Part shown: positions 1,224 to 16,816 of the stretch, in pieces | How the letters are laid out: the number at the start of each line of letters is the position of its first letter | Numbering within the stretch: position 1 is the first letter of the stretch | Origin: a virus | IMG/VR virus record: IMGVR_UViG_3300037367_000125 | Coordinates: 1 to 23,668 of that record | Strand: one strand, 5' to 3' | Length of the DNA: 23,668 nucleotides | Notes under the pieces: generated by a model | Databases searched by the model: none | What the model saw: the letters and a program-made list of their open reading frames with translations, nothing else | What the model was told of the DNA's origin: nothing | Position numbers and translations under genes: made by a program

Positions 1224-1664
1224 ATGCACCACTCCATCAATCGCCGGTTCCGCCGCCCGGTTTTACTTATCGCCGCGGGTACTCTCACACTTCTCCAGCC
1301 CGGGTGCAGCACACTTACTTCCGCCCAGCGCGGCGCCCTGCTCGTAGGCGCTGAAAGCCTCGCAAACATCGCCGGCACCGCAGCCGCCACTTACTACGGC
1401 GGCCCCGCCGCCGGCCAATTGGCGAGCTCCGGACTTAGCGCCCTGGGGAGCGTCCTGCAAGGTTACGTAGGCGCCAGCATCCCCAGCTCCGTAGTCCAGG
1501 CAACGCCCGGCGTGGCAAATGTCGGCGCCGCCGTCGCCGCCGTCATCGCCCCCAACAAGCCCGTAAGCCAAACCGACGTAAACATCGTCAACACCGCCGC
1601 CAAAATCGCCTCCACGCTCAACGTCGTCACACCCTCGCCATCGCCCGTACCCGCCGTGCCATAG
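1224..1664 (+). CDS. Small predicted lipoprotein, possible lysis-cassette component
   Basis: A 146-aa protein with a basic N-terminus, a hydrophobic stretch at about 13-24 and a lipobox-like LQPGC ending at Cys28; the -3 position is not the usual Leu, so lipidation is probable rather than certain. The mature part is Ala/Gly/Val-rich (about 31-115) with a Pro/Ser tail. I do not recognise a family. It directly precedes holin and endolysin genes, so a role in disrupting or spanning the envelope at lysis is possible, but it lacks the coiled-coil/Pro-rich look of classical Rz/Rz1 spanins. The ATG at 1224 has AGGA seven bases upstream. It is the first plus-strand gene after the divergent gap and so probably promoter-proximal. 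Confidence 0.75.
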   Translation: MHHSINRRFRRPVLLIAAGTLTLLQPGCSTLTSAQRGALLVGAESLANIAGTAAATYYGGPAAGQLASSGLSALGSVLQGYVGASIPSSVVQATPGVANVGAAVAAVIAPNKPVSQTDVNIVNTAAKIASTLNVVTPSPSPVPAVP

Positions 1665-1667
1665 GTG

Positions 1668-1711
1668 CGATCCGTGTTTATCCGTCCCGCAACCGCGGGA
1701 TCCGCGGTTCC
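1668..1711 (+). repeat. Intergenic repeat with ATCCGTG words and a CCGCAACCGCGG core
   Basis: The gap between lipoprotein and holin genes is filled by ATCCGTGTTTATCCGTC followed by GTCCCGCAACCGCGGGA (1684-1700). The latter 17 bases recur exactly at 3831-3847, upstream of another late gene. The core can fold into a 6-7 bp GC stem with an AACC loop. Confidence 0.6.
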
Positions 1712-1733
1712 TCTCCTTCCAACATCCAACTCC

Positions 1734-1952
1734 ATGAACTTACTCAAAACCATCCTACTCGGCTACATCCGCCACGGCCTCACCCTTGCCGCCGGTTATC
1801 TCCTCGGCCACGGCCTCATCGATCAATCCGGCAGCCAGGTCCTCCTGAGCGCCGGAATGGCGCTCGCCGGCGTCGCATGGAGCACCGGCCAGAAACTCGC
1901 GACGAACCTTGAACTCCAGATCGCCCGCAAAGCCCAGCCAGCCCGGCCCTAA
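1734..1952 (+). CDS. Phage holin, Pam3 gp28-like family
   Basis: A 72-aa protein starting MNLLKTILLGYIRHGLTLAAGYLL in outline, with two membrane helices at about 13-31 and 36-52 joined by the short polar turn DQSGSQ and followed by a basic tail. The pattern of an RH-LT-AAG helix, a G-ID turn, and a second Gly/Ala-rich helix matches my knowledge of the Pam3 gp28-type holins. Holins form the inner-membrane lesions that let endolysin reach the wall. The frame is open from 1665, but the residues before 1734 are encoded by an intergenic repeat, so I use the internal ATG. No Shine-Dalgarno sequence precedes it; the leader is pyrimidine-rich. It lies 24 bases before the endolysin gene, the usual lysis pairing. 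Confidence 0.8.
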   Translation: MNLLKTILLGYIRHGLTLAAGYLLGHGLIDQSGSQVLLSAGMALAGVAWSTGQKLATNLELQIARKAQPARP

Positions 1953-1976
1953 CACAACCCAACCAGACCCGCTTCC

Positions 1977-2558
1977 ATGACCGATACCTTCCCAGCCTCG
2001 CTGGCCTTCGTGCTCCGGCATGAGTGCGTCTATGCCCCGGGCCACGATGGCGACCTTGCGTTTGTCGTCCCCGAAAATGTCCCCGGGGACACCGGCGGTT
2101 GTACAAAATTTGGAATCGACGCCGCCGATCATCCCGGTCTCGACATTCCCAATCTTACCCTAGACGACGCCACGGCAATCTATCGCGACGGCGAGTGGAC
2201 CCAATGCCGCTGCGATGATCTGCCGGCCGGCATCGACACCGCCGTCTTCGATTGCGCCGTCAACAACGGGGTATATGTCTCCGGCTTTCTTTTGCAGCGG
2301 GCGATTGCCGGCTGCGGTTACTCGATCACGCTCGATGGCCAGATTGGGCCTGTGACCCTCGGCCTCGCCGCCACCGCCTGCCAGGCCGCGAAGTGGGGAC
2401 TTATCGATCACATGCTGGAACTCCGCCGCCAGCATTACGCGGACATCGTCCTGCTGCATCCCTGCGACGCCCAGTTTCTGCACGGCTGGCTGAATCGCGT
2501 CAACGACCTCGAGCAATTCCTCGAGGCTTCGACCCAGTCCGCACCACTTTCGGCATGA
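1977..2558 (+). CDS. Endolysin, GH108-type muramidase with C-terminal binding domain
   Basis: A 193-aa lysozyme-like protein. The N-terminal half fits glycoside hydrolase family 108: helix ending in RHE with Glu16 in the position of the catalytic acid, followed by a GDTGGCTKFGID segment (about 37-48) that corresponds to the family's D-x-GG-T-x-x-GI signature. The middle (AVFDCAVNNG, about 88-97) matches the family's second conserved helix. From about residue 117 the DGQIGPVTL motif and helices resemble the peptidoglycan-binding type 3 domain. It would cleave the glycan chain after holin release; no signal peptide is seen, consistent with holin dependence. Cysteines are unusually frequent for a cytoplasmic phage lysozyme. 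Its TGA overlaps the next start in ATGA, implying coupled translation. Confidence 0.85.
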   Translation: MTDTFPASLAFVLRHECVYAPGHDGDLAFVVPENVPGDTGGCTKFGIDAADHPGLDIPNLTLDDATAIYRDGEWTQCRCDDLPAGIDTAVFDCAVNNGVYVSGFLLQRAIAGCGYSITLDGQIGPVTLGLAATACQAAKWGLIDHMLELRRQHYADIVLLHPCDAQFLHGWLNRVNDLEQFLEASTQSAPLSA

Positions 2559-3325
2559 ATCAGCCCACTTACAGCAGCGCGCCCGCCACACCCGGGCCGC
2601 AACTCCTGGAAGCCCTCCGACTCGAGGCGGTAACTTGTTGCGTCGGTTTCGACGACATACTCGATATCACCCTCGCGCTCAATCATCCCCATCTCGATAC
2701 CCTCATCGTAGTAACTTCCCACGCCGACCACGCCACCCAGGCCGTGGCAAGAAAACATGGCGCAATCTGCGTCCAGACCGACTTATTCCGCAAGAATGGG
2801 CGCACCTTCAACAAAGGCGCCGCCATCAATGCCGGCTTCTCGCGCTTTCAATATCACGGCTGGCGTCTCCATCTCGACGCCGACATTGCGCTCCCGGATA
2901 ACTTCCGCCGCATCCTCTTTAATCACACGCACCTGGACCGGCACTGCATCTATGGCGCGGATCGTGTCGACGTCGTTGGCAGCGATGAAATCGCAGCCGT
3001 CAAAAGCGGCAATGGCCACCCGCAGCATGCGCAAGGGTTCATGGTGGCCCCGCGGCCCGCGCAGCCCCTCTCCGCGCGCTATGTGGATACCTTGCGCGGC
3101 TATGTCCCCATAGGTTTCTTCCAGCTCTGGCATTCCTCCACGCAAAAGGAATATCCATGGTCGCTCGGCACCGCGGCCCATGACGACGTCATGTTTGCGG
3201 AGCAATGGCCCGCCCCGTTCCGCCGCCATCTTCCCACGGTCATCTGCCAGCACCTTTGCGCGCACGCGCCCAGCCTTGGCGAGAATTGGGACGGCGCCCG
3301 CAAGCAACCGAGGATCAAGTTATGA
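2555..3325 (+). CDS. GT-A fold glycosyltransferase (family 2/galactosyltransferase-like)
   Basis: A 256-aa single-domain glycosyltransferase. Visible marks are a nucleotide-sugar strand with LIVVTSHAD (about 50-58), the donor-binding NKGAAINAGF at 86-95, the metal-binding DxD at D108-A-D110 in LHLDADIALP, and HDD at 209-211 in the position of the acidic acceptor-site motif. Together these are the GT-A order. Donor and acceptor are unknown. It starts at ATG 2555 overlapping the endolysin stop, and its own stop overlaps the next start, so it is embedded in the late transcript and not a separate cargo gene. Plausible roles are glycosylation of a virion protein or of the host surface; the sequence does not decide. 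The frame is open further upstream (2252), but that part is a shadow of the endolysin gene. Confidence 0.8.
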   Translation: MNQPTYSSAPATPGPQLLEALRLEAVTCCVGFDDILDITLALNHPHLDTLIVVTSHADHATQAVARKHGAICVQTDLFRKNGRTFNKGAAINAGFSRFQYHGWRLHLDADIALPDNFRRILFNHTHLDRHCIYGADRVDVVGSDEIAAVKSGNGHPQHAQGFMVAPRPAQPLSARYVDTLRGYVPIGFFQLWHSSTQKEYPWSLGTAAHDDVMFAEQWPAPFRRHLPTVICQHLCAHAPSLGENWDGARKQPRIKL

Positions 3326-3804
3326 TAAATGATCCCCGCTTATTAGTGCTGGGCGACGTCACCGACGCCATCCCCAATCACGCCGGACCATTTCTCGCCG
3401 TGATGATCGGCCTCATCGTCCTCTTCGCTTGTCTCGGCCTCATCCTCCGTGTGGCAAATGACGCGCGCACCTTCTTCGGCCGCCGCCCGCCACTCGATAC
3501 CGACGTCCGCAAGATCGAGTCCCGCGTCGCCCGCCTGGAGGTCGTCATGGAACGTCTCGCTACCAAAGAGGCGCTAAGTCAACTGGAACGCGATTTCGGC
3601 CGGACCCTTGATGAGAAGTTCCAGACCCTGGACGCCAAACGAAGCCACGACACCTGCGAACTCCACAAACACGTCGAGGCCACCGCCGCCAATTTCAACA
3701 AGCGTCTCAACGATGTCTCGAGCTCCCTGGGCGAGCAAATCCGCGGCCTCCCCAACGACATCTTCCAAATGCTCAAAAATGCCAGCGAAGTAACCGGCAA
3801 CTAA
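3322..3804 (+). CDS. DUF2730-like membrane-anchored coiled-coil protein (Mu gp25 position)
   Basis: A 160-aa protein with one membrane helix at about 24-44 (GPFLAVMIGLIVLFACLGLIL) and a long charged helical region at 58-150 rich in heptad-like Leu/Val/Ile, predicted coiled coil. This architecture, and the position two genes before the small terminase, match the DUF2730 proteins of Mu-like phages (Mu gp25), whose function is not established. A spanin-like role (inner-membrane anchor with periplasmic coiled coil) also fits, given the lysis genes just upstream. The start at 3322 overlaps the glycosyltransferase stop in ATGA; the longer frame from 3205 is an artefact of the overlapping gene. Confidence 0.7.
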   Translation: MINDPRLLVLGDVTDAIPNHAGPFLAVMIGLIVLFACLGLILRVANDARTFFGRRPPLDTDVRKIESRVARLEVVMERLATKEALSQLERDFGRTLDEKFQTLDAKRSHDTCELHKHVEATAANFNKRLNDVSSSLGEQIRGLPNDIFQMLKNASEVTGN

Positions 3805-3812
3805 CCTCACCC

Positions 3813-3831
3813 ATTAGCAATCTCACATTAG
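3813..3831 (+). repeat. Dispersed repeat family A, copy 2
   Basis: ATTAGCAATCTCACATTAG, which recurs at 15314-15332 with one mismatch and, inverted, at 20314-20332 with two. It occupies the gap after the coiled-coil gene. Confidence 0.7.
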
Positions 3832-3848
3832 TCCCGCAACCGCGGGAC
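3831..3848. repeat. GC hairpin element, second copy
   Basis: GTCCCGCAACCGCGGGAC is a perfect 7-bp stem with an AACC loop. Seventeen of its bases repeat exactly at 1684-1700. It lies 13 bases before the next start codon and has no T-tract, so a terminator is unlikely; it could influence mRNA stability or translation. Confidence 0.6.
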
Positions 3849-3861
3849 AATTTCTCCGCCC

Positions 3862-4113
3862 ATGCGTTCCACCACCATTCGCCGCGCAATCCTCGAAATT
3901 CTCGAGCGCGCCCAACCGTACGCGCTCCCCGAGCAGCAACTGATCGTCGAGCTGAACGGCTCGATCCGCCCCCCGGCAGGCAAAGCTGAGTTCGACGAGG
4001 AAATCCTGTTCCTCCAGGTCCGCGGCTATATCGCCACCGTGCCCGATTCTCTCGATGAGAGCCTTATCAAATGGGCCGTCACCGAAGCCGGCCGCACCAC
4101 GCTGCGCCAGTAA
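3862..4113 (+). CDS. Small winged-helix-like protein (Mu gp26 position)
   Basis: An 83-aa protein with the helix pattern RRAILEILERAQPYALPEQQL, a middle helix (FDEEILFLQVRGYI) and a terminal strand-helix (KWAVTEAGRTTLRQ) that together look like a winged helix-turn-helix; phrases such as GYI followed by WAVTEAGR are common in small wHTH proteins. It sits between the gp25-like and gp27-like genes, where Mu-type phages carry a short protein of this size and type. Its role is unknown; a packaging accessory or DNA-binding function is a guess from position. The next gene begins at the base after its stop. Confidence 0.7.
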   Translation: MRSTTIRRAILEILERAQPYALPEQQLIVELNGSIRPPAGKAEFDEEILFLQVRGYIATVPDSLDESLIKWAVTEAGRTTLRQ

Positions 4114-4728
4114 ATGCTGCCAATGAAGAATTATCGCAAGATTCGCGGTGACACAGTGTTGAACCGGCTGACGCCGGATCAGCAGGAGGAAGTGCTCGCC
4201 TACTGCGAAGGGGTCACAATTCGGGAAGGAATTACCTGGCTCGAAGCGCAGTTCAACGTCACGCTATCCAAACGCTCTCTGAGCGACTGGCTAAAGAAGC
4301 GCCGCATCGATCTCGCCGCGGTTGCGCGTCTCAAGGAGATACGCCAGGCGCGCGACCACGCCGCACTGATCGGCAAGGTAATCAGTTCCGCCACCGAACT
4401 TACCGAGGCGAATACTGTGCTAATCGCCCAGGCGGTCTTCGAGGAACTGATGAAGCCGGAGGAACACCGCGATGAGGCGAGACTGGCAAGATACATGTCC
4501 GTCGCCCTGAAGGCGCGAGGCCAGGAAATCAAGGATAAGTCCCTAAGCCTGGCGGAAAGCCGGTTTCGTTTCGACGCATCCAAGGCCGCGCTACGCGAAG
4601 CCGCCCGATTGCAAGAGATCAATCTGGGACCGGAAGATGAGCGCGAAAAGATCGAGAAGGTCATGCTCCTGCTCTTCGGACCAAAGCCCGCCGGCTTCTC
4701 CGTGCCCCCTGGAAAGGAGAACGCCTGA
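4114..4728 (+). CDS. Small terminase subunit, DUF3486/Mu gp27-like
   Basis: A 204-aa, highly charged helical protein. The N-terminal third (NRLTPDQQEEVLAYC ... ITWLEAQFNVTLSKRSLSDWLKKRR, about 15-65) is a helix-turn-helix of the kind that begins DUF3486 proteins, and the rest is long helices. In Mu-like phages this family lies immediately before the large terminase and is the small terminase, recognising DNA for headful packaging. Here it also overlaps the large terminase start by one base (TGATG). ATG 4114 abuts the previous stop; ATG 4123 is an alternative start three codons later, and neither has a clear Shine-Dalgarno sequence. Confidence 0.82.
   Translation: MLPMKNYRKIRGDTVLNRLTPDQQEEVLAYCEGVTIREGITWLEAQFNVTLSKRSLSDWLKKRRIDLAAVARLKEIRQARDHAALIGKVISSATELTEANTVLIAQAVFEELMKPEEHRDEARLARYMSVALKARGQEIKDKSLSLAESRFRFDASKAALREAARLQEINLGPEDEREKIEKVMLLLFGPKPAGFSVPPGKENA
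4714..4719 (+). promoter_or_regulatory. Strong ribosome-binding site for the large terminase
   Basis: AAGGAG lies eight bases before ATG 4728, inside the end of the small terminase gene. It is one of few good Shine-Dalgarno sequences in the left half of the window and fixes the terminase start. Confidence 0.7.
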
Positions 4729-6206
4729 TGCGCTGGAACCCTTACCTCGAAGCGGACTGGCACCCTGGCAATTCCAGCACGCAGGGCTTGCTCAAGTTCC
4801 GGAAATTCCAGGAGCCAGTATTCTGGTCCGCCGAGGGCGTCCTCCTGCTCCATTGGAGCCGGCAGATCGGCAAGAGTTACATCCTCGCGGCGTGGGCCGT
4901 CCGCCGTCTGCTCGGCAATCCGGGCCGCCTGGTTACCGTCCTTAGCAACAGTAAGTCAAACGGCATGGAGTTTATCCTCAAGGCCGCCCAGGTCTGCGCC
5001 GCCATGCGCGTGGCCTGCGAGTCCGCCGAACTCTCGACTAACGATCGCATCGAAAGCATGCGAATGGAGATTCGCATAAAGCTGAACGGGAAATTCAGCC
5101 GCCTCATCGTCCTCGCCGCAAATCCCCGCACCGCCCGCGGTTTCTCCGGCGATCTCATTCTCGATGAATTCGCGTTCCACGAGGATAGCACCGCCATCTG
5201 GGATGCCGCCGAGCCCATTATATCGAGTAATCCCGACTATTGCTGCCGCATCGCCAGCACCGGCAATGGACGCTTCAACATGTTTTACCGCATGGCGAAT
5301 GAGTCCTCGCCATACCCCGTCTCGCAAATCCGCCGCAGCGACGCCTACGAGATGGGCCTCAAAATCTATGATCCCGCCACGCGCCGGGAGATCACGCCCG
5401 CCGAAGCCCGCTCCGCCGCATGGGACAAAGCAAGCTACGACCAGAACTATGAGTGCGCTTTCAATGACGAAAGCATGGCGCTCCAGACCCATGAACTTAT
5501 CGCCGCATGTGAGTATGCCACTTTGCCCGGCGCCGCCGGCTCAAGTAAGGAATGCTTCATCTGCGCACAGGACTGGAGCTGGGAGGCGCTCGAAATGCTC
5601 CGGATCTGCAAGGGTCCGCTCGGCATCGGCCTCGATGTCGGCCGCAACCGCGACATGACCGTCATCGCAGTAGGCGAGAAAGTCGGCGGCATCCTCTTCA
5701 CCCGCGCACTGCTCCGCATTAATGGCATGCGCCTCCCTCAGCAGCTCGACCGCTTGCGCCCAATCCTGCAAATGCCGAACTTTGGCCGCCTCTCCGGCGA
5801 CGCCACCGGCCTCGGCCTTGGCCTTGTCGAATTTGCCCAGGAGCTTTGCGGCCCCTATCGCGCCGAGGCCGTCCAATTCGCCTCCCGCGAGAAACTCTCC
5901 ACGCGCGGCGACCGCCAGGGCGGCTCCGCCCTTGTGACCGAACTTATGGCCCTCGACTTACTCGAAGTATTCGAGGCGCGCGCCATCCGCATCCCGTGCG
6001 AGACCGCCCTGCGCGAGGGCCTCCGCAAACCCGAGCGTATTACCAGCGCCAATGGCGTCCGCATCGCCGCAACGCGCGACGAGTCCGGCCACGCCGACGA
6101 ATTCTGGAGCATCGCCCTAATGCTCCGCGCCCTCAAGACCGCCACCAGCCGCTTCGCCTTCGAGCCCTCCGAAGAATCCGCCACCCGAAAACTCGCCCTC
6201 TTCTAA
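4728..6206 (+). CDS. Terminase large subunit (Mu gp28-like ATPase/nuclease)
   Basis: A 492-aa packaging motor. The Walker A-like segment SRQIGKSY (44-51) with Lys49 follows the adenine-binding WxAE region, and the Walker B strand DLILDEF (142-148) gives D146-E147. A coupling motif ASTGNG (176-181) fits motif III. The C-terminal nuclease shows GIGLDVGRNRD (299-309) with Asp303 and Asp309 and LSGDATGLG (355-363) with Asp358, the acidic set of RNase H-like terminase nucleases. Length is normal, and the order small terminase, large terminase, portal is that of Mu. It would dock on the portal and drive DNA into the prohead. No truncation is seen. Confidence 0.95.
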   Translation: MRWNPYLEADWHPGNSSTQGLLKFRKFQEPVFWSAEGVLLLHWSRQIGKSYILAAWAVRRLLGNPGRLVTVLSNSKSNGMEFILKAAQVCAAMRVACESAELSTNDRIESMRMEIRIKLNGKFSRLIVLAANPRTARGFSGDLILDEFAFHEDSTAIWDAAEPIISSNPDYCCRIASTGNGRFNMFYRMANESSPYPVSQIRRSDAYEMGLKIYDPATRREITPAEARSAAWDKASYDQNYECAFNDESMALQTHELIAACEYATLPGAAGSSKECFICAQDWSWEALEMLRICKGPLGIGLDVGRNRDMTVIAVGEKVGGILFTRALLRINGMRLPQQLDRLRPILQMPNFGRLSGDATGLGLGLVEFAQELCGPYRAEAVQFASREKLSTRGDRQGGSALVTELMALDLLEVFEARAIRIPCETALREGLRKPERITSANGVRIAATRDESGHADEFWSIALMLRALKTATSRFAFEPSEESATRKLALF

Positions 6207-6220
6207 TCACCCGCGCCCAC

Positions 6221-6279
6221 TCCATCCGTCCCATTGGGACCTATCCGGCCCATCCGGGACTCACTCGGAACCCATCCCT
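6221..6279 (+). repeat. Intergenic repeat with GTCCCATTGGGAC words
   Basis: The 98-base gap between terminase and portal contains CCATCCGTCCCATTGGGACC followed by CTATCCGGCCCATCCGGGAC and a related tail. Short inverted words (GTCCC-ATT-GGGAC) recur. It looks like another family of dispersed intergenic repeat; only one copy is in this window. Confidence 0.5.
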
Positions 6280-6304
6280 TCCCTAAACCACGCCCACTCC
6301 CATC

Positions 6305-7624
6305 TTGAACACCAAACCTCCAACAAAACGCCGCGCTCCCAAAACGGAATCCATGATCAGCGCCGACGTCGTCCAACTCGCGCTACGCTCCCGTTTCAAT
6401 CCCCTGCGCGGGCTAACTCCGCAGTTACTCTCCGTTTACCTCGATAACTTCCTGCTCGGCTTTGTCGGTTACGCCGCGTTGGTCTGGGACCAATTGGAAA
6501 AGCGGGACGACGTCCTCCGCAACGTCGCCAGCAAGCGCAAGAAAGCCGTCGCGAAGTTCAAGCGCAAATCCTTCCAGCGCGAACAAAGCCCCGAAGCCGA
6601 GGCTCACGCCCAGGCGCTCGATGATTTCTACGAGAACATCACCGTCGTAAACGCGCTGGACCAAAATGAGACCGGCGGCCTCCCGCTGCTAATCCGCCAG
6701 ATGATGGATGCCGTAGGCAAATACTACGCCGTCCACGAGATCGTCTGGCAGCCCGGGTGCCTGAGGGACGGCAGTAAGATCCTCACCGCGGAACTCCGCT
6801 TTGTCCCCCTCTGGTTCTTCGAGAACCGCAGTGGCCGCCTCCAGTTCCTGAAACTCCCGCTCGGCGGAGCCAATGGCGAGCCACTCGAACCCGGCGGATG
6901 GATGATAACCAAAGGCGACGGCATCATGGAAGCCTGCTCCATCGCTTACATGTTCAAGAACATGCCCCTGAAGGATTGGGTAAGTTATAGCGATAAATTC
7001 GGCACACCCGGTGTGCTGGGCCAGACCAACGCCGCCAAAGGCAGCGAAGCCGGCGAAGCGCTGAAGGCAGCCGTGGCGAGCTTCGGCCAGAATTGGTCTG
7101 GCGTGGTGTATGGCGCGGACGGCTCGATCAAAGAACCGATCTCACTAATCACCGCCCGCGGTGAAGGCACACTCCCATTCCCAGCGCTGGTCGAGCGCAT
7201 GGACCGCGCCATGATCTCCCTCTGGCGCGGCAGTGATCTCTCCACCCTCTCCGCCGACAACAAAGGCGCCAGCGTCCAGCAGGACGAAAGCGACATCCTC
7301 CTCGAAGACGATGCCGCGATGATTAGCGAAACCCTCCAGGTCTACATCGATCGCTGGGTCATCTGGCAGAAATTTGGAGTAAGTCCGCTTGCTTACTCCC
7401 GCATCGTCGTCCCCGAGTCAAAGAACGTAACGCTGGACCTGCAAATCGACGAACTCCTCCTCAAAGCCGGCGCCCGCCTGGGCGAGCGCGAGCGCCTGGA
7501 ATACTACGGCCGCCCGCTGATCGCCCCCGACGACGCGCCGCTCCACAACCCCGCGACAATCATGGAGCGCGTCCAGGACATGACAAAGGATACCTCCGTC
7601 CCCGTCGAAAGCCTACCTACTTAG
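6305..7624 (+). CDS. Portal protein, DUF935/Mu gp29-like
   Basis: A protein of up to 439 aa. The N-terminal part (FNPLRGLTPQLLSVYLDNFLLGFVGYAALVWDQLEKRDD) and the central AVGKYYAVHEIVW, LRFVPLWFFENR and DKFGTPGVLGQ segments fit the DUF935 portal family of Mu-like phages, including the W-x-x-YSDKFGTP region about residue 224 onward. The portal is the 12-fold ring at one capsid vertex. The start is uncertain: TTG at 6305 gives a basic N-terminal tail (PPTKRRAPK), while ATG at 6353 (MISADVVQ) is more conventional; neither has a Shine-Dalgarno sequence. It follows the large terminase as in Mu, but the gpF-like gene that normally comes next is displaced to 11905. Confidence 0.9.
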   Translation: MNTKPPTKRRAPKTESMISADVVQLALRSRFNPLRGLTPQLLSVYLDNFLLGFVGYAALVWDQLEKRDDVLRNVASKRKKAVAKFKRKSFQREQSPEAEAHAQALDDFYENITVVNALDQNETGGLPLLIRQMMDAVGKYYAVHEIVWQPGCLRDGSKILTAELRFVPLWFFENRSGRLQFLKLPLGGANGEPLEPGGWMITKGDGIMEACSIAYMFKNMPLKDWVSYSDKFGTPGVLGQTNAAKGSEAGEALKAAVASFGQNWSGVVYGADGSIKEPISLITARGEGTLPFPALVERMDRAMISLWRGSDLSTLSADNKGASVQQDESDILLEDDAAMISETLQVYIDRWVIWQKFGVSPLAYSRIVVPESKNVTLDLQIDELLLKAGARLGERERLEYYGRPLIAPDDAPLHNPATIMERVQDMTKDTSVPVESLPT

Positions 7625-7660
7625 CTATAGCTCCCCCCCTCCCCACGCGCCAGCGTCCAC

Positions 7661-7720
7661 TTGAACTTACACTTGAACTTGAACTTACACTTCTCCCTAC
7701 ACTTTCCCTTACACTTACAC
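7661..7720 (+). repeat. Hexamer-unit array 1 (ten 6-bp units)
   Basis: Exactly 60 bases divide into ten hexamers: three TTGAAC, four TTACAC, and one each of TTCTCC, CTACAC and TTTCCC. The consensus is TTRMAC on the plus strand. It lies in the 161-base gap between portal and protease, 65 bases before the next ATG. The rest of the gap is C-rich and has no other feature or Shine-Dalgarno sequence. Confidence 0.85.
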
Positions 7721-7785
7721 CCCAAAGGCCCCACCCGCCCCACTCCTCCCCTAAACACTTCCAACACTCTACCTCACCCAAACTT

Positions 7786-9006
7786 ATGAACCTACGCTCC
7801 CTGAAAACCCTGTTTCACAGCCTGGCGACCCAATCCACGGCCCTCGCCAACGAATCCGCCGCTGTCGCGGTAACTCTGCTGCTTCCCAATCAACTCTCGC
7901 CGCTCGAACCCGGCCAGGACCATTGGGTCCAGCTCTCCCCCTTCGGCGATTTCGGCAACACCACCGGCAACGCCCGCATCATCCAGCGTTTCCGCAAGGA
8001 AGACGCCGAACATATCCGCGACGAGTTTAATTCCGCCCTGCGCAGAGTAACTCAACCGCTTGGCATGCCGTTCTATATCGGCCATCCCGATCATCCCCGT
8101 TTCAAGGGCCAGCCGGGTCACGAAGACACGCGCGCCTATGGCCGCGGCAAGGAAATGCAAGTCCGCCACGACCCCGCCTGCCCCACCTGCGCCTCCTTCG
8201 CCAACGCCAGGGCCGACACAGCAAGCGCCCCATGCCAGGAACACGGCCTCTTCGTGAAAATGCATTGGAATGACGACGGCGCGCGCCTTATCGGCAACGA
8301 AAGCTTCCACGGCCACAGCGTCAATTGGGCCGCGATGCCCGACGGCATGGAGAACGGCCTGCAGGTCTTCCGGCCCGTCCGCGTCAAGAGCGCCGGCTTT
8401 ACCAATGAACCGAATATCCCTGTGCGCCCCGCCTCGCTGGGCAACGCCGCCGTTACCAGCGATGGCGAACAACAGCCATCGCAATATTTGGTACCCCCGA
8501 AGCTGAAGGTTCTCGCGGGCTTCAAAGAAGACGATGAAGTTACGATGGAGGAAGTTATTGCGGCGCTTGAAAAGGGGCGGGCCGTCGATCAGCCGAATGT
8601 AAGCGAGCGTACGCGACTCGAGCGGCGGGTGCGGGATGAGCGCCGCGCCCGCGCCACCGTAGTCATTGACAGCCTGGTCAAGACCGGCCGCATTATCATG
8701 AAGGATCGGGCGGGCTGCATCGAGCAGTTATGTAACGCCGGAGATCAATTCGAAGAAAGGGCCGCGGAACTGGCCAATGTTCGCCCCGCAATAAAGACAC
8801 AGGCGCGCTCCAGTAACCTCGCAGGCCAGCACGCGAAGGTCGTCGAGGGAGAGCGCGAGCGGGCGGCGCGGTTCCAGGAACTAATGGACCAGCGCCAGAA
8901 GGATTTCCCCAACGAGACTTACGAAGACCGCTTCCGAGCCATAGCCAATTCAAACGAGGGCATTCAGCTCTTCGCCCAAATGCGGCGCACCGGCGCGGAA
9001 GACTAA
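7786..9006 (+). CDS. Prohead protease fused to scaffold (Mu I/Z-like)
   Basis: A 406-aa protein. Residues 24-215 form a Mu I-type prohead protease: FYIGHPDHPRF with His100, a Y-GRGKEMQVR strand (118-127), GLFVKMHWNDDGARLIGN (154-171) and the likely nucleophile segment SFHGHSVNWAA (173-183, Ser178), ending in the family-typical T-NEPNIPV. Residues 240-406 are charged, Arg/Glu-rich and helical, as expected of a scaffold released by the protease. In Mu the shorter Z scaffold is made by internal initiation; ATG codons near residue 254 could do the same here. A CxxC-x14-CxxH insert lies at 132-153. Base composition changes from C-rich to G-rich at the protease/scaffold border. The start at 7786 has no Shine-Dalgarno sequence. 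Confidence 0.85.
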   Translation: MNLRSLKTLFHSLATQSTALANESAAVAVTLLLPNQLSPLEPGQDHWVQLSPFGDFGNTTGNARIIQRFRKEDAEHIRDEFNSALRRVTQPLGMPFYIGHPDHPRFKGQPGHEDTRAYGRGKEMQVRHDPACPTCASFANARADTASAPCQEHGLFVKMHWNDDGARLIGNESFHGHSVNWAAMPDGMENGLQVFRPVRVKSAGFTNEPNIPVRPASLGNAAVTSDGEQQPSQYLVPPKLKVLAGFKEDDEVTMEEVIAALEKGRAVDQPNVSERTRLERRVRDERRARATVVIDSLVKTGRIIMKDRAGCIEQLCNAGDQFEERAAELANVRPAIKTQARSSNLAGQHAKVVEGERERAARFQELMDQRQKDFPNETYEDRFRAIANSNEGIQLFAQMRRTGAED

Positions 9007-9030: not shown

Positions 9031-9561
9031 ATGATCCATCCGATCATCGCCGTACCTGTTATCGCGAGCCTCTTGCTCGTGCTGGCAGCCTCATGCAATC
9101 CCAAACGCGGCTCCCGCGTCCTGGCGTGGCTGGCCAATAACGCCATCCTCGTCAATGTTACTCACAAAGGGTACGCCACCGCCGTGGCGGACGCCCCGTT
9201 CACCAGCCGCTATCTTATCGCGAAACGCGGCGCGGAGTATTACAGCATCGCGATCGCCGGCCAGGGGGACACCCCGTACGGCGTGGTGCCCGACATGACG
9301 CCGACCACTGACACCGACCTGAGTTATCCGCTGCCGGTAAACATCCTTGGGCTGAACGAGGACACCGAGCGGATGATCGCGAACGGGCCAATCGCAATCG
9401 ACAACCTGATTACCACGGCGGCAGGCGGCCTGGTGCAAGCGCTGCCTGTGGCTGCGCCGGGTAACTATTGGGTGCTCGGGAAGGCCAGGACGGCGGCGCA
9501 GAACCAGGATGACCAGGTGGAGGTTATTCCGTGCTTTCCGTACCAGGTGCAGGTGGTCTGA
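9031..9561 (+). CDS. Head decoration-like protein with a lipoprotein-like N-terminus
   Basis: A 176-aa protein in the slot between protease and major capsid where phages place the capsid cement protein. Residues about 38-176 are beta-rich with Gly/Ala/Pro turns (FTSRYLIAKRGAEYYSIA, TYPLPV-like strands, GNYWVLGKA), resembling small trimeric decoration proteins such as the DUF2190 group; this is a judgement by pattern. The first 22 residues (hydrophobic 5-20 then ASC with Cys22, followed by a basic NPKRG) look like a signal or lipoprotein peptide. A strong AAGGAG supports this start, and no in-frame ATG exists that would remove the hydrophobic part. How a membrane-targeting segment fits a capsid protein is not clear. 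Confidence 0.65.
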   Translation: MIHPIIAVPVIASLLLVLAASCNPKRGSRVLAWLANNAILVNVTHKGYATAVADAPFTSRYLIAKRGAEYYSIAIAGQGDTPYGVVPDMTPTTDTDLSYPLPVNILGLNEDTERMIANGPIAIDNLITTAAGGLVQALPVAAPGNYWVLGKARTAAQNQDDQVEVIPCFPYQVQVV

Positions 9562-10229: not shown

Positions 10230-11315
10230 ATGAGCAGAACCATCACAAAACTCCCGGGGACCATGTCCTTCGGTGAGTTCCGCAAACATCACGCGCGGGC
10301 GCTGGGCAAGCTTGCCGAGATCAACAGCGAGCCCGTGGCGCTCCTGGCCAACGAAGGCTCGGCCATCCAGCCGGGCGCGGTCTATCTGGCCAACGAGTCG
10401 GTATTCACCCAGCAATACTTCGACGAACCGCTGACCAATTACGCGGTCGGCTGGCGGGACCCGAATAACATCGAGGAAACCCTGGAGTTCTTCGCGCCGA
10501 GCACGCCGGTGTCTCGCCGGTTCACTTACAAATCGTGGGTGAACATCGAGGAGTTCCTGTCCGAAGGGGCTTACGATGACCTGCGCGCAATCGGCGAGGA
10601 GTTCCCGACCGTGAAGTACACGGGGACAGAAGTCCACTCCCGGACCGATAACCGCGGCCTGCGCATCCGGGTGGACCTGGACGAGGTGGCCGATCCCACC
10701 AGCGCGCTGGCTGGCGGCCTGCCGGCGTACCAGGCGCGGATCGTCGAGAAGCTCAAGCGGCGCGTCCTGCGCAACTCGCTGCGCCGTGCGATCACCTCGC
10801 TCTCTGCGGCGGCGATCAACACGGCGGTGGTGTGGGAAGGGGCGGCGGGGACAGATCCCGACAACGCGGTGCTCCAGCAGCTCGTGGCGGCGGCGACACA
10901 GAGCGGCATCCGGCCCAACCGGGTGGCGTGGGGCGACACGGCCTGGGCGCGGCGTGTGCTGACGCATCGCGCGCAGAACAACGCGGGCGGCTACGCGAGC
11001 GCGGGATTGACTCCGGAGCAGGTGGGGATGTTTTTGCAGGTCTCGCCCTATGTGTCCAAGGAGCGCTTCAGCGCGGCTGGCGCGGGCCTGGCCGAAGTGG
11101 TGGGCAACCTGGTGTTCATGTTCTACGCGATGGCGGGACAGGACACGGAAGACGCATCCAACATCAAGCGGTTCTACTCGATGACGGACTCGGGCGGACC
11201 GTGGCGGGTGTATGTGCAGCAGGTCACCAGCAAGCTGGTGGATATCACCGTCGAGCATTACGAGAAGATCGTGGTGACTTCGTTGCTGGGGATTAACCAG
11301 TTTACGGTGAGCTGA
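10230..11315 (+). CDS. Major capsid protein
   Basis: A 361-aa protein at the expected place after protease and decoration genes. The sequence has the features of HK97-fold shell proteins: an N-terminal helical arm, a strand-rich E-loop region (RFTYKSWVNIEEFLSEGAYDDLR, about 98-120), a long spine helix with QARIVEKLKRRVLRNSLRRAI (about 168-188), a PNRVAWGDTAWARRVL segment (230-245) and a C-terminal P/A-domain strand set ending KIVVTSLLGINQF. This is a structural-pattern call; it does not closely resemble Mu gpT by eye. It would assemble around the scaffold and portal. The antisense strand is open across this gene as a GC-rich artefact. Confidence 0.8.
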   Translation: MSRTITKLPGTMSFGEFRKHHARALGKLAEINSEPVALLANEGSAIQPGAVYLANESVFTQQYFDEPLTNYAVGWRDPNNIEETLEFFAPSTPVSRRFTYKSWVNIEEFLSEGAYDDLRAIGEEFPTVKYTGTEVHSRTDNRGLRIRVDLDEVADPTSALAGGLPAYQARIVEKLKRRVLRNSLRRAITSLSAAAINTAVVWEGAAGTDPDNAVLQQLVAAATQSGIRPNRVAWGDTAWARRVLTHRAQNNAGGYASAGLTPEQVGMFLQVSPYVSKERFSAAGAGLAEVVGNLVFMFYAMAGQDTEDASNIKRFYSMTDSGGPWRVYVQQVTSKLVDITVEHYEKIVVTSLLGINQFTVS

Positions 11316-11331
11316 TTCCTTGGGCTGAAAG

Positions 11332-11378
11332 CCTGGTCCCGCGTTGTACAAGAGCGCGGGGCCGGGCTGAGGACCAGG
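11332..11378. other. Long hairpin after the major capsid gene
   Basis: CCTGGTCC (11332-11339) is the exact reverse complement of GGACCAGG (11371-11378), and CCGCG (11339-11343) can alternatively pair with CGCGG (11355-11359) around a TTGTACAA palindrome. The structure starts 17 bases after the capsid stop. It lacks a T-run, so it is more likely an mRNA-processing or stability element, or another repeat, than an intrinsic terminator. Confidence 0.5.
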
Positions 11379-11383
11379 GGAAA

Positions 11384-11455
11384 GTGTAAGTATAAGTTTA
11401 AGTGTAAGATTTAGTTCAAGTTCAAGTGCAAGTGCAAGAGTAAGTTCGAGTGAAG
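11384..11455 (-). repeat. Hexamer-unit array 2 (twelve units, opposite orientation)
   Basis: Twelve 6-bp units read GTGTAA, GTTCAA, GTGCAA and variants on the plus strand, i.e. TTACAC, TTGAAC and TTGCAC on the minus strand. The phase is unbroken from 11384; the last unit (GTGAAG) is degenerate. It ends eight bases before the next start codon. Confidence 0.85.
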
Positions 11456-11462
11456 AAGCAGA

Positions 11463-11918
11463 ATGAGTAACTGGACGCAGATGACGGAGGATACGCTGAA
11501 GGCCGCAGGGCACTCGGCGATCATCACGGCTGCGCAGACGGCGGGGATCGGTGCGGTTGACCCGGTGGCGGAGTCGATTGCGGATGCGGTGGCGCGGGTG
11601 CGGGCGGCGTGCAGCACGGGGAACGCGATGAACGCGGACCCGAGCACGGTGCCGAACTCGTTGAAGGGGCTTACTATCCGGATCGCGCTCTTTGCGCTGC
11701 TGGAGCGCATCAATTATCCGCTGTCTGAGGATCAGCGGGACACGCGGCGGAATGACAACAGCTACCTGCTGCGGATCAATGACGACAAGCTACGGTTCGA
11801 GACGCCGGATGTGCCGGCGGGGACGGCGGAAATGCAGGAGGCGGGAGGGGAGATTGATGTGATTACATCGACGCGGCGAGAACCTTGGACGCGACACGGG
11901 ATGGATGGGCTCCTCTAA
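11463..11918 (+). CDS. Head-tail connector/adaptor protein (Mu gp36/DUF1320 position)
   Basis: A 151-aa, mainly helical protein. The N-terminal helix, a dp-x-x-ESIADAVARVRAACSTG helix (34-52), the P-x-SLKGLTIRIALFALLERINYPL stretch (63-87) and the YLLRINDDKLRFETP end (103-117) follow the layout of DUF1320-type head completion proteins (repeated helices, then Y-x-x-LL and a Gly/Arg-F-x-x-P end). Mu gp36 has this type and lies directly after the capsid gene. It probably bridges portal and tail. The sequence similarity is modest, so the call leans on context. Its last 14 bases overlap the longest form of the next gene. Confidence 0.65.
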   Translation: MSNWTQMTEDTLKAAGHSAIITAAQTAGIGAVDPVAESIADAVARVRAACSTGNAMNADPSTVPNSLKGLTIRIALFALLERINYPLSEDQRDTRRNDNSYLLRINDDKLRFETPDVPAGTAEMQEAGGEIDVITSTRREPWTRHGMDGLL

Positions 11919-13518
11919 ATTGATGATTGCTGATCTCAGATTGCTGATTTGGAAGAATGTCGCGGATGGCCCGCGAGCGGGAAAGACTTTGCTCGCGAAT
12001 GAACTTACTTTTGACGAGCCCACGGAATGGGATGAGGCGGTGGAGTTGATGATGCGCAAGGGGCTGATGCCTACAGCCGGCGGCAGCGCGGCGCTGCGGG
12101 ATATGCAGCAGGGGATCAAGCTGCGGGCTTTTTTTTCGGCCAGGATGACGAATGCGGGGTTCCTGGACCGGGCGCAGAAGCTGGCGGCGAAGATCGCGGG
12201 AGGACCGGATGAGGAGGACTTCGCGGCGCGGGCGCGGGGAGACAAGGCGCTGCTGATGAGCATCCCGGAAGCGAAGGCGCAACTTTTGGAGTATCTCAAA
12301 TCGACGGGGTACATGCCCAGCGAGGAGGACCGGGGAACGCTGCGGGATTTCTCGAGCGACGCGCGGCTGCAACTGATCGTGGAAACGAACGTGCGGGACG
12401 TGCAGGGGTATGCGCGGTGGATGGGATCGCAGAATGAAATGTCGCTGTATGGGAATCCGGCGTGGGAGCTGGTGAGGCTGCGGCACTCGAAGGTGCCGCG
12501 CGATTGGGAGGAGCGATGGGAGGCGGCGCGGGAGGGCACCCAGGAGGAGGGATCGACCGAGGCCGGGGAGCGGATGGTGGCGCTCAAGAATCACCCGATC
12601 TGGCAGGCGCTGGGAGACGGGATCGGAGGGTATGAAGATACGCTGGGCAATCCGTGGCCGCCGTTTGCATTCAACTCGGGGATGGGTGTGATCGACGTGA
12701 ACCGGGACGACGCGCTGGCGCTTGGGATCATGGATGAGGGCACGCGGATCGATCCCCAGGAAGACCCGGGCGGCCTGGACGGGGGCGGCAACGTCGAGGC
12801 GAGCGTGGAGGGGTACGCGGAGTTTCTCACCGATATCATCAAGGACATCAAGGGGCTGAGGGTGACGGACGGAAAGGTGACGCTGGGGAATGCTAATCAA
12901 TTAAGGCGTCAGAGCAGATCAGACTCTCTGCGGCAGGTTTGGCGGGAGGGCGGCAAGGTTTACGATGACGGCATCGAAGTGATTCCCGGAGGGATTCCCA
13001 TGCTGCGCGATAATATCGGGCGCATCATCGGGATGCTGTTGCCTAACATGGGGACGAGCGAGGGGGCGTACAAGGGCTGGGAGACGCGGCGCGGGGCGAT
13101 TGCGCGGGATATGAAGGCGGTGCGCAAGGCGACACGGATTGCGCGCACCCGGAAGCGCGGGACGCCGGGAGTACTGCAACGCGGGAAGTACCGGATCGAT
13201 ATGCCTTATGGGCGCCCCGGCACGCTCGATCCCAACAAGCTGGACGATGGGTATGGCTCCGCTCATCTCGATTATCAGCATTCGCCGGAGGAGCTGCATC
13301 AATTGCCGGTGACGCTGGCGCGCGGCTCGGTGCATGAACATGAAAGTCCGGACAAGCTTTACGTGGTGAGCGGTCAACACGTCGCCGTGCTTACTGCGGC
13401 GCGGAGAAATGATGGCGGAATTTCGCAAACCCGCTATGGGCTCACGACTCACTTCAAAGACATAGAGAAGGCCGACCGGGTGATTACGACCCGGCCGGCC
13501 TTGGTAGAAGCCAGATGA
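11905..13518 (+). CDS. Mu gpF-like head morphogenesis protein with a C-terminal nuclease-toxin-like domain
   Basis: A protein of up to 537 aa. Residues about 25-270 look like the phage head morphogenesis (Mu gpF, SPP1 gp7) domain: helical region with LRAFFSARMTNAGFLDRAQ (73-91), LQLIVETNVRDVQGYARW (155-172), a YGNPAWELVRLRHSKVPRDW segment (182-201) and GNPWPPFAFNSGMGVIDVNRDDA (248-270). A charged linker follows. The final part (about 415-537) has GSAHLDYQHSPEEL, LPVTLARGSVHEHESPDKLYVV and RYGLTTHFKD, which resembles the phage-Barnase/EndoU/ColicinE5-D/RelE-like (PBECR) nucleases fused to MuF proteins. Codons 5-18 are supplied by a dispersed repeat, so the start (11905, 11923 or a later non-ATG codon) is uncertain. 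No immunity gene is obvious nearby. Confidence 0.72.
   Translation: MGSSKLMIADLRLLIWKNVADGPRAGKTLLANELTFDEPTEWDEAVELMMRKGLMPTAGGSAALRDMQQGIKLRAFFSARMTNAGFLDRAQKLAAKIAGGPDEEDFAARARGDKALLMSIPEAKAQLLEYLKSTGYMPSEEDRGTLRDFSSDARLQLIVETNVRDVQGYARWMGSQNEMSLYGNPAWELVRLRHSKVPRDWEERWEAAREGTQEEGSTEAGERMVALKNHPIWQALGDGIGGYEDTLGNPWPPFAFNSGMGVIDVNRDDALALGIMDEGTRIDPQEDPGGLDGGGNVEASVEGYAEFLTDIIKDIKGLRVTDGKVTLGNANQLRRQSRSDSLRQVWREGGKVYDDGIEVIPGGIPMLRDNIGRIIGMLLPNMGTSEGAYKGWETRRGAIARDMKAVRKATRIARTRKRGTPGVLQRGKYRIDMPYGRPGTLDPNKLDDGYGSAHLDYQHSPEELHQLPVTLARGSVHEHESPDKLYVVSGQHVAVLTAARRNDGGISQTRYGLTTHFKDIEKADRVITTRPALVEAR
11918..11951 (+). repeat. Dispersed repeat family A-like, inside the gpF-like 5' end
   Basis: AATTGATGATTGCTGATCTC followed by AGATTGCTGATTTG is made of the same TGATT/GCTGAT words as the gap at 14274-14300. 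It is read through as the residues MIADLRLLIWKN of the gpF-like protein. Confidence 0.5.
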
Positions 13519-13649
13519 ACGCGCTGAAGTTCCTTTTACAACGCGCCTACGCGCCCGACCCTACTGGTAACGCGGGTATCGGTGGTTGCCGGCAGCGTCT
13601 GAACTCTAGCCCTGTGCGGTATGTGGCGCAACCTGTAATTCTCCTGCTT

Positions 13650-14270
13650 ATGAGTCTCGCGGTCTCGATTTCGATAAGTGACAATGCGACGCCATTCGTG
13701 ACGGCGCTGGAGCGGGACGTGCAGCCCTCGCGGGAGATGTACCAGGCGGTGGCGGAGCAGATGCTGCCGGAGGTGCAGCGCTCCTTCCAGAGCATGAGCG
13801 AGCGGGAGCAGAACGCGCTCAAGCACACGGGATTCTGGATGCGGATGATCGACGGCACGCATGCGCGGTGGACGGATGACGCGGCCATCGTGAGCATGCC
13901 GCGCGAGGTGGCGCAGCGGTACTTTGGCGGGACGATCACGCCGAAGAACGGCAACTGGCTTACGCTGCCGATGCGGACTGAGGCTGTGGGGGTCTCGGCG
14001 CGGCAGTTCGATGATCTGCGGTTCGTGCCGATTGGCAATGACGAGGCGCTGCTGGTGCAGCGGGACGCGCAGACGCTGAAGCACAAGAAGCGGCGGGATG
14101 GATCGCGGCCGGCGACGCCGGGGGGAATGGTGGGAGGGCTGGCTTTCTATCTATTGGTGAAGAGTGTTACTCAATCCGGGAACAGCGATGTGCTGCCGGA
14201 TGAGGAGGAGTTTGCGAGCGCGGCGAAGCGGGGGATCAACTATTTCCTTAACTTGAGGTACCCGGGATGA
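13650..14270 (+). CDS. Virion morphogenesis protein, Mu gpG/tail-completion-like
   Basis: A 206-aa protein whose start MSLAVSISISDNATPF fits how gpG-type proteins begin (a short strand, then a helix). The body contains FQSMSEREQN, a MPREVAQRYFGGTITPKNG segment (about 82-100) in place of the family's hQfGg-x-i-x-P-k-x-x motif, then LTLPM and a C-terminal strand-helix set ending AAKRGINYFLNL. Mu gpG follows gpF, as here, and is thought to act in head-tail joining. The frame is open back to ATG 13515, which overlaps the previous stop by four bases and would add 45 residues of less regular codon use including a hydrophobic run; I prefer 13650 but cannot exclude 13515. If 13650 is right, 13519-13649 is a gap with nothing recognisable. 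Confidence 0.65.
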   Translation: MSLAVSISISDNATPFVTALERDVQPSREMYQAVAEQMLPEVQRSFQSMSEREQNALKHTGFWMRMIDGTHARWTDDAAIVSMPREVAQRYFGGTITPKNGNWLTLPMRTEAVGVSARQFDDLRFVPIGNDEALLVQRDAQTLKHKKRRDGSRPATPGGMVGGLAFYLLVKSVTQSGNSDVLPDEEEFASAAKRGINYFLNLRYPG

Positions 14271-14273
14271 AGG

Positions 14274-14300
14274 CATTGATGATCGAAGATTGATGATTGG
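14274..14300 (+). repeat. Short intergenic repeat related to family A
   Basis: Words GATGAT, AGATTGATGATTGG fill the 45-base gap between the gpG-like gene and the next small gene, echoing 11918-11951. Confidence 0.4.
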
Positions 14301-14315
14301 CAGAAGGGAGATGCA

Positions 14316-14579
14316 ATGAGCGCGCACGCGACGAATTTTGACTTAGTTTCTCACGGTCAGGAGGCGCATGTATTGCGGGTGCGGCTGGAGTCCGCGGCTC
14401 ATGTGGATTTTATTGTGCCGGACGATACACTGCTGGATCTGGCGGCGGCGATTATTCGCTGCGCGGCGCGGAAGATTGTTCGCCAAGCGGTGATGAGGGA
14501 ACAAGGTAAGGAGGGCGAAACCAACCTGCGGCGGATGGCGGAAATAGCGCAGAAAACCAATATGGAGGCCATCCGATGA
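14316..14579 (+). CDS. Small conserved-looking phage protein of unknown function
   Basis: An 87-aa protein with a strand pair at about 18-33 (EAHVLRVRLESAAHVDFIV) followed by two helices: DDTLLDLAAAIIRCAARKIVRQAVMRE and a charged helix to the end. I do not recognise it. AAGGGAG six bases before ATG 14316 is a good Shine-Dalgarno sequence, and its stop overlaps the next start by four bases, so it is a genuine co-translated gene between the gpG-like and gp37-like genes. A connector or tail-assembly role is inferred from position alone. Confidence 0.65.
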   Translation: MSAHATNFDLVSHGQEAHVLRVRLESAAHVDFIVPDDTLLDLAAAIIRCAARKIVRQAVMREQGKEGETNLRRMAEIAQKTNMEAIR

Positions 14580-15307
14580 GTCTCCAGCAATTTCAACTGG
14601 ACGTGGCGGCACAGGTGGCGGCGATGCCGCTGGCTGAAAATGTGCCGGTGTTCGTTTTTCGGCCGCGCGAGGCGCTGACGGCGACGGCGATCCAATCGAA
14701 GATTGACGCCGCCCTGGGGGCGTTGACGGGGAAGAACGGGCTGAGCGGGATTGCGATTACGGTATTGATGCCGAGGCTGGACATCAAGAGTGGCGAGCAG
14801 GAGATGCCGGGACCTTATCTGCATCTCAGATGCCAGGTGCTGGTGCAGGAAAACGCGATGGTGAATATGGGGATTAATGGGACCGGGATCGCCTGCGAGG
14901 ATCTGTCGATCTCCGTGGCGCAGGCGTTGCACTTATGGACGCCGGGCGGCGTCTCGGGCATCTGCCGGGTGAGTGAGCAGGCTATTGTCCCGGATTTGAC
15001 TTACAAGGATTCGATTACTTATCGCGTCAGCGTCGAGAGCGAGCCTGCATTCCCTGACCTGGCTACGACACCGATGCCGCTGATCCGGCTGGTGGGGGGG
15101 CAGGTGAACCTGCTTTGCCTGCCGGTGGGCGTCGCGATCTATTATACCCTGGACGGGACGACGCCGGCTCCATCCGAGGGCGAGATTGTAACCACGGCCC
15201 AGCTTTACGAGGCGCCCTTTGGCTGCCCGCCGCCGGGCACGCTGCTGCGGGCGCAGGCTTTCCTGCCCGGGGCGCGCGGGAGCGATATCAATTACCAGCA
15301 ATTCTGA
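14576..15307 (+). CDS. Tail terminator-like protein (Mu gp37 position) with a chitobiase C-terminal-like module
   Basis: A 243-aa two-part protein. Residues 1-160 have the alpha/beta layout of a tail terminator or minor tail protein (helix FQLDVAAQVAAMP, strand VPVFVFRP, IAITVLMPRLDI, PYLHLRCQVLVQENAMVN, helix SISVAQALHLW), consistent with Mu gp37/DUF1834-like proteins that cap the tail tube at the head. Residues about 168-243 contain YYTLDGTTPAPSEG and LYEAPF followed by LLRAQAFLPG, the signature of the CHB_HEX_C_1/FN3-like module found in chitobiases and many surface proteins. The module probably projects from the virion and may bind carbohydrate. GGAGG seven bases before ATG 14576 and the four-base overlap with the previous stop support the start. 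Confidence 0.65.
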   Translation: MSLQQFQLDVAAQVAAMPLAENVPVFVFRPREALTATAIQSKIDAALGALTGKNGLSGIAITVLMPRLDIKSGEQEMPGPYLHLRCQVLVQENAMVNMGINGTGIACEDLSISVAQALHLWTPGGVSGICRVSEQAIVPDLTYKDSITYRVSVESEPAFPDLATTPMPLIRLVGGQVNLLCLPVGVAIYYTLDGTTPAPSEGEIVTTAQLYEAPFGCPPPGTLLRAQAFLPGARGSDINYQQF

Positions 15308-15313
15308 CATTCA

Positions 15314-15345
15314 ATTAGCAATCTCACATCAGCAATTAGAAATTA
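15314..15345 (+). repeat. Dispersed repeat family A, copy 4
   Basis: ATTAGCAATCTCACATCAG continues into CAATTAGAAATTAA. The first 19 bases match 3813-3831 with one mismatch and, inverted, 20314-20332 with one mismatch. ACATCAGCAATTAG recurs at 16794-16807. It fills the gap directly before the tail tube start. Confidence 0.75.
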
Positions 15346-15349
15346 ACTT

Positions 15350-16285: not shown

Positions 16286-16292
16286 ATGAGCG

Positions 16293-16709
16293 ATGCTTGT
16301 ATCCATCGGCGGCTATACCTTATGCGACGGCACGCGGGAAGGAGGCGTCTCGACCACGGGGATGAAGTTCAAGGTAAAACGGCTCATCCAGGTGGCGCCA
16401 TGTTTCCGCGCGGAGCAGGTCGAGACATTCGACCGTGGGAACCGGGAGACGATGCTGAGCTTCGACGTGTTCTACACCTTCGATACCATCGCGGACGCGG
16501 AGGCGTTTGTGCTCCTGCTGGAGGAAAATCTGCCGAGCGCGGGCCTCGTCACGCTGATATCCAGCAAGCCGAACGGCCAGACCGTGGTGCGCTACCTTGC
16601 GGACGGCAAGGTCGATTCCCACGAGCTGATCGAGCAGATCGGGAGCACCATCCACTATCACTACGAACTCATCGGCGGAGTGGCGCAGAGCACGCCGCCG
16701 GCGGAGTAA
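16293..16709 (+). CDS. Small tail protein following the tube gene
   Basis: A 138-aa protein with MLVSIGGYTLCDGTREGG, a strand-rich centre (KFKVKRLIQVAPCF, RGNRETMLSFDVFYTFDTIADAEAFVLLLEENLP) and an end of IHYHYELIGG. The RGN-x-x-x-LSFDV-x-x-TF-x-AEAF pattern looks like a domain of small tail-assembly or distal-tail proteins, but I cannot name the family. It begins seven bases after the tube stop. A second frame opens at 16286 over the same bases; its product is Arg/His-rich and lacks structure, so I treat it as a shadow. Possible roles: tail completion, tail-tip or adaptor to the baseplate. Confidence 0.65.
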   Translation: MLVSIGGYTLCDGTREGGVSTTGMKFKVKRLIQVAPCFRAEQVETFDRGNRETMLSFDVFYTFDTIADAEAFVLLLEENLPSAGLVTLISSKPNGQTVVRYLADGKVDSHELIEQIGSTIHYHYELIGGVAQSTPPAE

Positions 16710-16712
16710 GGA

Positions 16713-16808
16713 GATTTCAAATTGCTAATGCCGGACTGCTAATTTCAAGAACCAGAACATGCACCGCACGCCGCTCCCTCAATCTGCATTTTAACATCAG
16801 CAATTAGC
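16713..16808. repeat. Repeat-filled gap, family A fragments
   Basis: The 107-base gap before the next gene has ATTTCAAATTGCTAATGC at its left and ACATCAGCAATTAG (16794-16807) at its right; the latter 14 bases are identical to part of 15314-15345. Nothing else is recognisable between them. Confidence 0.6.
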
Positions 16809-16816
16809 ACTTACCC

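Follow-up and report, generated by a model that had tools for sequence, protein, structure and literature searches.

A reversal of GC skew in the head genes of a Mu-like phage fragment, with recombination near 9.2 kb as the likeliest explanation

The stretch of DNA analysed here (the window) is the whole of IMG/VR record IMGVR_UViG_3300037367_000125, a single, linear sequence of 23,668 bases. It derives from a Mu-like phage or prophage of Verrucomicrobia type, of which it is a fragment, and has the following features.

40..963, minus strand: NAD-dependent nucleotide-sugar epimerase (Pfam PF01370, 1.5e-62; phrog_540, 1.9e-88), the sole minus-strand gene
1224..8460, plus strand: C-rich tract with lipoprotein, holin, GH108 lysozyme, small genes, TerL, Mu-type portal and the protease portion of the protease-scaffold gene
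7786..9006, plus strand: protease-scaffold gene, an uninterrupted open reading frame (ORF) aligning over its full length with relatives
9120..9285 (best 9186), no strand: likeliest site of the sign change in the four-fold change-point fit, inside gene 9031-9561
9587-10207, plus strand: gene without homologue in any relative examined, so that gene content breaks immediately to the right of the skew switch
10230..11918, plus strand: major capsid protein (MCP; phrog_1005) and gp36-like gene (Phage_Mu_Gp36 just below cut-off)
11905..14579, plus strand: strongly G-rich three-gene block (+0.47 to +0.67), missing from close relatives
14576..17698, plus strand: four genes of the right-hand part, G-rich as well, of which three diverge from the clade to an unusual degree
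7657-7716, 11382-11447 and 17704-17769: intergenic arrays of AAGTNN hexamers, the middle one on the strand opposite to the others
9569-9593: short AT-rich intergenic repeat at the edge of the skew switch, with an inverted copy at 4-28 (25 nt, 96 %) at the epimerase end
3813, 11932, 15314, 16713, 16779 and 20302: related short AT-rich intergenic repeats

The head genes form a Mu-type module: the portal matches PF06074 (6.4e-50), the gp36-like protein matches PF07030 just below the cut-off (1e-4), and the protease-scaffold and capsid proteins belong to phrog_328 and phrog_1005, respectively. Domain matches in the C-rich tract comprise Phage_holin_10, Glyco_hydro_108, Terminase_6N, Portal_Mu and phrog_328. 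Relatives with portal and capsid at 80–90 % identity were found in viral contigs only, and those at about 50 % identity reside in Verrucomicrobia genomes as prophages; for the window portal, the phage collection offers matches of only ~22–31 % identity. Genes for transposase A and ATPase B are absent from the window, itself a fragment, and the Pfam Mu-transposase C-terminal model had no match in ten relatives. The early region of the relative L184 encodes, on the opposite strand, an ATPase matching TniB/AAA_22 (TniB/MuB-like), next to a 678-aa protein that has no Pfam match and is MuA-like by position alone. Among Verrucomicrobiota chromosomes, where its gene type is common, the best match to the window epimerase reaches 68 %. 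The gene lies in 1-1223, left of the lysis genes, a place that an HTH/S24 repressor occupies in L007, L009 and L040; the left end of the window may be a prophage-host junction, a captured gene or the result of early-region loss.

On the other side of the head genes, the close relatives have gp36 directly followed by the homologue of 14576-15307, without the 2.7 kb block 11905-14579, which puts a further gene-content junction at ~11.9 kb. None of the three genes of this block has a Pfam match, and the first has weak homologues (32–38 % identity) only in the distant cousins L043/L067 and L041/L068, at the same place. The protein encoded by 14576-15307, in the tail-side module, has a Fn3-associated/chitobiase C-terminal-like domain. 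The AAGTNN arrays, of which an inverted pair (11382-11445/17706-17769) flanks the G-rich block, are absent from nearly all relatives (L004 has one) and from the host loci examined; a search for the host by means of the array matched three of 387 Verrucomicrobiota genomes, and their arrays were different. The AT-rich repeats could be recombination substrates. Gene order and orientation match those of all relatives, and for this reason an inversion of the left tract was rejected, be it across the repeat pair 4-28/9569-9593 or across the AAGT arrays.

A first-pass annotation of this DNA had reported that the plus strand turns from C-rich to G-rich at about 8.5 kb, near residue 228 of the protease-scaffold protein. 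The six 60-base C and G counts that it quoted proved exact on recount, and the reversal is genuine and much stronger than chance would give: cumulative GC skew drops from base 1 onwards, reaches its minimum at 9346 and rises afterwards, in a single V-shaped curve, and 5000 shuffles of 500-base blocks never produced one as deep. Overall skew is -0.19 in 1-8450, about zero in 8451-9186, +0.05 in 9187-11273 and +0.22 in 11274-15310, and then +0.09, +0.04 and +0.04 in the successive segments past 15310. At four-fold degenerate sites, read on the late-gene strand, C and G account for 64 % and 19 % in 1-8460, 36 % and 49 % in 8461-11320, 18 % and 66 % in 11320-15310, and 31 % and 43 % beyond 17.7 kb. 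Because A and T stay at 6–14 % throughout, the change comes close to a pure swap of C for G. A slight AT skew accompanies it, with A exceeding T on the left and T exceeding A at 11.3–15.3 kb.

The place and the sharpness of the switch were less well described in that annotation. Within 1–11.3 kb, the main change point at four-fold sites is at 9186 (2-unit support 9120-9285), and the best two-segment split is at 9234, so that the sign changes in gene 9031-9561, next to the protease-scaffold gene and not within it. The position 8.45 kb marks only an onset, where skew weakens from about -0.5 to -0.2 without changing sign (-0.54 in the protease part and -0.20 in the scaffold part). Nor is the DNA simply G-rich from 8.5 kb: a near-zero zone 2–3 kb wide comes first, and strong G-richness begins at ~11.3 kb. 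Per-gene four-fold skew lies between -0.42 and -0.69 in the C-rich tract, except for TerS (-0.16); the major capsid protein gene has a skew of +0.26 and the gp36-like gene +0.86. Further steps were placed near 10.8–11.3 kb and at 20.1 kb. A smooth sigmoid with decay gives a BIC of 4088, ~29 units above that of a five-change-point stepped model (4059), so that the profile is made of several steps and not of one edge.

The skew is a strand effect and not one of codon usage. Most of it is found at third codon positions, second positions showing no consistent change. The minus-coded epimerase has a plus-strand four-fold skew of -0.61, the sign of the whole left half, and the intergenic DNA of the left side is C-rich as well. 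Likewise, in the G-rich relative L040, the minus-coded early gene e197 reaches +0.88 on the late strand, the sign of the plus-coded genes, albeit over 34 sites only. These minus-coded genes follow the strand, which, together with the C-rich intergenic DNA on the left, indicates that the bias belongs to the strand. The earlier statement that the sign holds across coding strands on the left has a single minus-strand gene as its basis, with intergenic DNA in support.

We compared the window with ten syntenic relatives whose portal and capsid are mostly 80–90 % identical to its own. The four-fold skew of the genes that they share divides them into three classes: L002 and L003/L004 are strongly negative, L006 and L065 strongly positive, and L005, L007, L008, L009, L011 and L066 near zero at most genes, the range across homologous genes being -0.94 to +0.88. 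Intergenic DNA orders these classes as four-fold sites do, at a smaller size (-0.29 to -0.45 in the C-class, -0.03 to -0.25 in the neutral class and about zero in the G-class). The window alone is C-type in its left half and G-type in its right half. The annotation had raised the question of whether the same switch point exists in related phages, and none of the ten relatives changes sign there. Splitting each sequence into two segments raised the log-likelihood by 177 in the window, by 49, 44, 41 and 18 in L007, L009, L004 and L002, and by ~6 or less in the others; these four relatives have smaller steps without such a reversal, three of the four elsewhere, in tail-side genes. At the left-hand genes, the C-class L002 and the neutral L009 are sisters (84/86) despite their different classes, which indicates that the skew state changes quickly.

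Skew also varies among more remote elements. The early regions of L184 (1-9023) and of both prophages of G272 are minus-coded and G-rich on the late strand, with a late region near zero, giving a skew step at the early/late boundary. In two Verrucomicrobia prophages (G354:C16 near 84.9 kb and G009:C90 at 64–90 kb), the late strand is locally and strongly C-rich, down to -0.37 and -0.33, respectively, and the host flanks have weaker skew than the prophage. Over six Verrucomicrobia prophage contigs with flanks and 11 further prophage regions, host skew is mostly weak (~0.1) and some prophages are locally stronger. The two prophage copies in G272 have opposite chromosomal orientations and one skew pattern in phage orientation, although they may be recent copies. 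Host-chromosome skew was consequently rejected as a simple cause: it is mostly weak, and the G272 copies oppose host orientation as the sole cause.

Phylogenetic placement differs significantly on the two sides of the switch. In the tree of TerL, portal and protease, the window and the C-class L004 are sisters (100/100). The scaffold and gene 9031-9561 are compatible with this grouping (AU p=0.29), but form an uninformative block. With MCP and gp36 the window+L004 clade is rejected (AU p=0.012), and with block 14576-17698, where the window branch is long, it is rejected weakly (AU p=0.075). Identity at first and second codon positions places L004 nearest from ~7.25 to 9.5 kb and other relatives beyond. 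Median identity to relatives is 52–56 % for window genes 14576-15307, 16293-16709 and 16817-17698, against 68–74 % for the same three genes among the relatives themselves. No close sister of the right half exists among the sampled relatives, G-class included, so that the sample supplied no donor for the G-rich part, and two further scans returned no closer donor for block 11905-14579 or for gene 15350-16285. Taken together, the tree conflict, the unshared genes and the divergent right-hand genes point to a recombination junction that lies within gene 9031-9561 or immediately to its right. Where the annotation had suggested a joint between modules, a joint is supported, but not at the protease/scaffold boundary, as the N-terminal part of the protease and the C-terminal part of the scaffold have the same nearest relative (L004/L003).

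Our best explanation, which we consider somewhat favored on balance, is that recombination near 9.2 kb joined tracts with opposite histories of strand-specific mutation. A C-rich tract, from the epimerase to ~9.2 kb, would have been joined to one or several tracts with an opposite, long-standing bias, both biases pre-existing in the parents, as might be expected from the existence of wholly C-rich, wholly G-rich and neutral relatives. The reversal at strand level, the three skew classes and the lost sisterhood with L004 to the right of the switch are observed, whereas recombination as the cause of the reversal is an inference. The weaker steps at differing places in L007, L009, L004 and L002 are what mosaicism predicts, and not what a fixed functional boundary predicts. 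Compositional bias could pull amino acids in the trees, yet the C-class L002 stays outside window+L004. Counting against recombination, the transition is stepped across ~3 kb instead of forming one sharp joint, the relatives are few, the right half has no sister among the sampled G-class phages, and the AU p value of the far right block is only 0.075. How the parental biases arose is a matter of speculation: each lineage might long have been copied in a single direction, for instance while resident as a prophage on one replichore, in which case a crossover between two oppositely oriented prophages could yield a hybrid that is C-rich on the left and G-rich on the right, with a C-rich left flank, and the neutral members would be those that frequently re-inserted in either orientation.

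The annotation had also offered a replication-linked boundary, in which the cumulative minimum at ~9.2–9.4 kb would be a divergent origin of the element or of its replicon, with arms copied as opposite leading strands. The V-shaped curve with its single minimum, the slight AT skew in the direction expected of replication asymmetry and the obedience of the minus-coded flank gene to the strand agree with such an origin. However, the minimum falls within conserved head genes, a sign change at this place is absent from the relatives, whose skew is uniform and of one sign or the other, and phylogenetic affinity shifts near the same place, a shift not expected from an origin. With one mismatch allowed, DnaA-box-like sites are in modest excess over the whole window (13 versus 6.8 expected), but only one lies near the switch (9158); no clustered boxes were found at the minimum, in a test that does not cover phage-type origins. 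We therefore regard this explanation as unlikely and the recombination joint as the better supported of the two ideas.

A chimeric assembly, with a false join in the head module between two different phage contigs, appears quite improbable. In its favor, the source is one linear IMG/VR record, a search for a second near-identical contig confirming the join found none, and repeats are present in the region, but those close to the switch amount to no more than 25 nt at 96 % or ~60 nt at 76–86 %. In addition, the protease-scaffold ORF and its adjoining ORFs are intact across the region, intermediate skew steps are not expected from one misjoin, and independent contigs also show weaker regional steps. 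We give very little credence to a segmental history without donor exchange, that is, a single lineage whose replication or exposure regime changed part by part; skew fades from +0.9 at gp36 and reaches 0 by 20 kb, which resembles the graded head-to-tail decay that such a history implies, but the superiority of the stepped fit and the phylogenetic discordance argue against it. Finally, the idea that genes merely differ in their taste for C- or G-ending codons, although it accords with the concentration of the signal at third positions, the inconsistency of second positions and the G-class intergenic skew of about zero, is largely refuted by the opposite bias of the same genes in close relatives, by the minus-coded genes that obey the strand in both C-rich and G-rich classes and by the C-rich intergenic DNA on the left, in keeping with the annotation's own view that codons alone were not responsible.

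A broader and more tentative proposal is that, in this clade of Verrucomicrobia-type Mu-like phages, strand bias may be a switchable trait of lineages, the late strand being C-rich, G-rich or neutral and flipping between near relatives, probably with the habitual direction of copying. Skew might then record past orientation and later recombination, as at the 9.2 kb joint. If strand bias in transposable phages does record the direction and duration of copying, skew reversals inside phage genomes would locate recombination between differently oriented lineages even when the donor is not at hand. The ease with which strand bias changes sign in these phages is surprising, and a clade whose homologous genes span four-fold skews of about -0.9 to +0.9 is a natural experiment on what sets strand-specific mutation in phages, irrespective of which genes are present and in which direction they run.

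Compared with known systems, the window resembles transposable Mu-like phages in its Mu-type portal and gp36-like gene, but lacks the repressor and early region of its Mu-like relatives and has the epimerase in that place. The strand-level reversal from C to G and the cumulative minimum recall bacterial chromosomes, where skew reverses at origins or in inverted segments; in the window, however, gene order and orientation are conserved with the relatives, and the switch is not common to them. Gene transfer agent clusters of Alphaproteobacteria also have phage-derived head genes with elevated GC skew, attributed in part to preferred G-rich codons, phages and prophages showing no notable elevation (PMC9836097), whereas in the present clade close relatives differ in sign and the bias goes with the strand. 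In the literature, of which our coverage was partial, we found no description of skew classes that flip sign within one phage clade. The closest likeness is to the module exchange of mosaic tailed phages, with which the window shares a joint inside a conserved structural module, a changed nearest relative and unshared genes nearby. Unlike in the usual exchange, the joint is here marked by a reversal of strand composition, as would follow from parental lineages that carry opposite GC skew.
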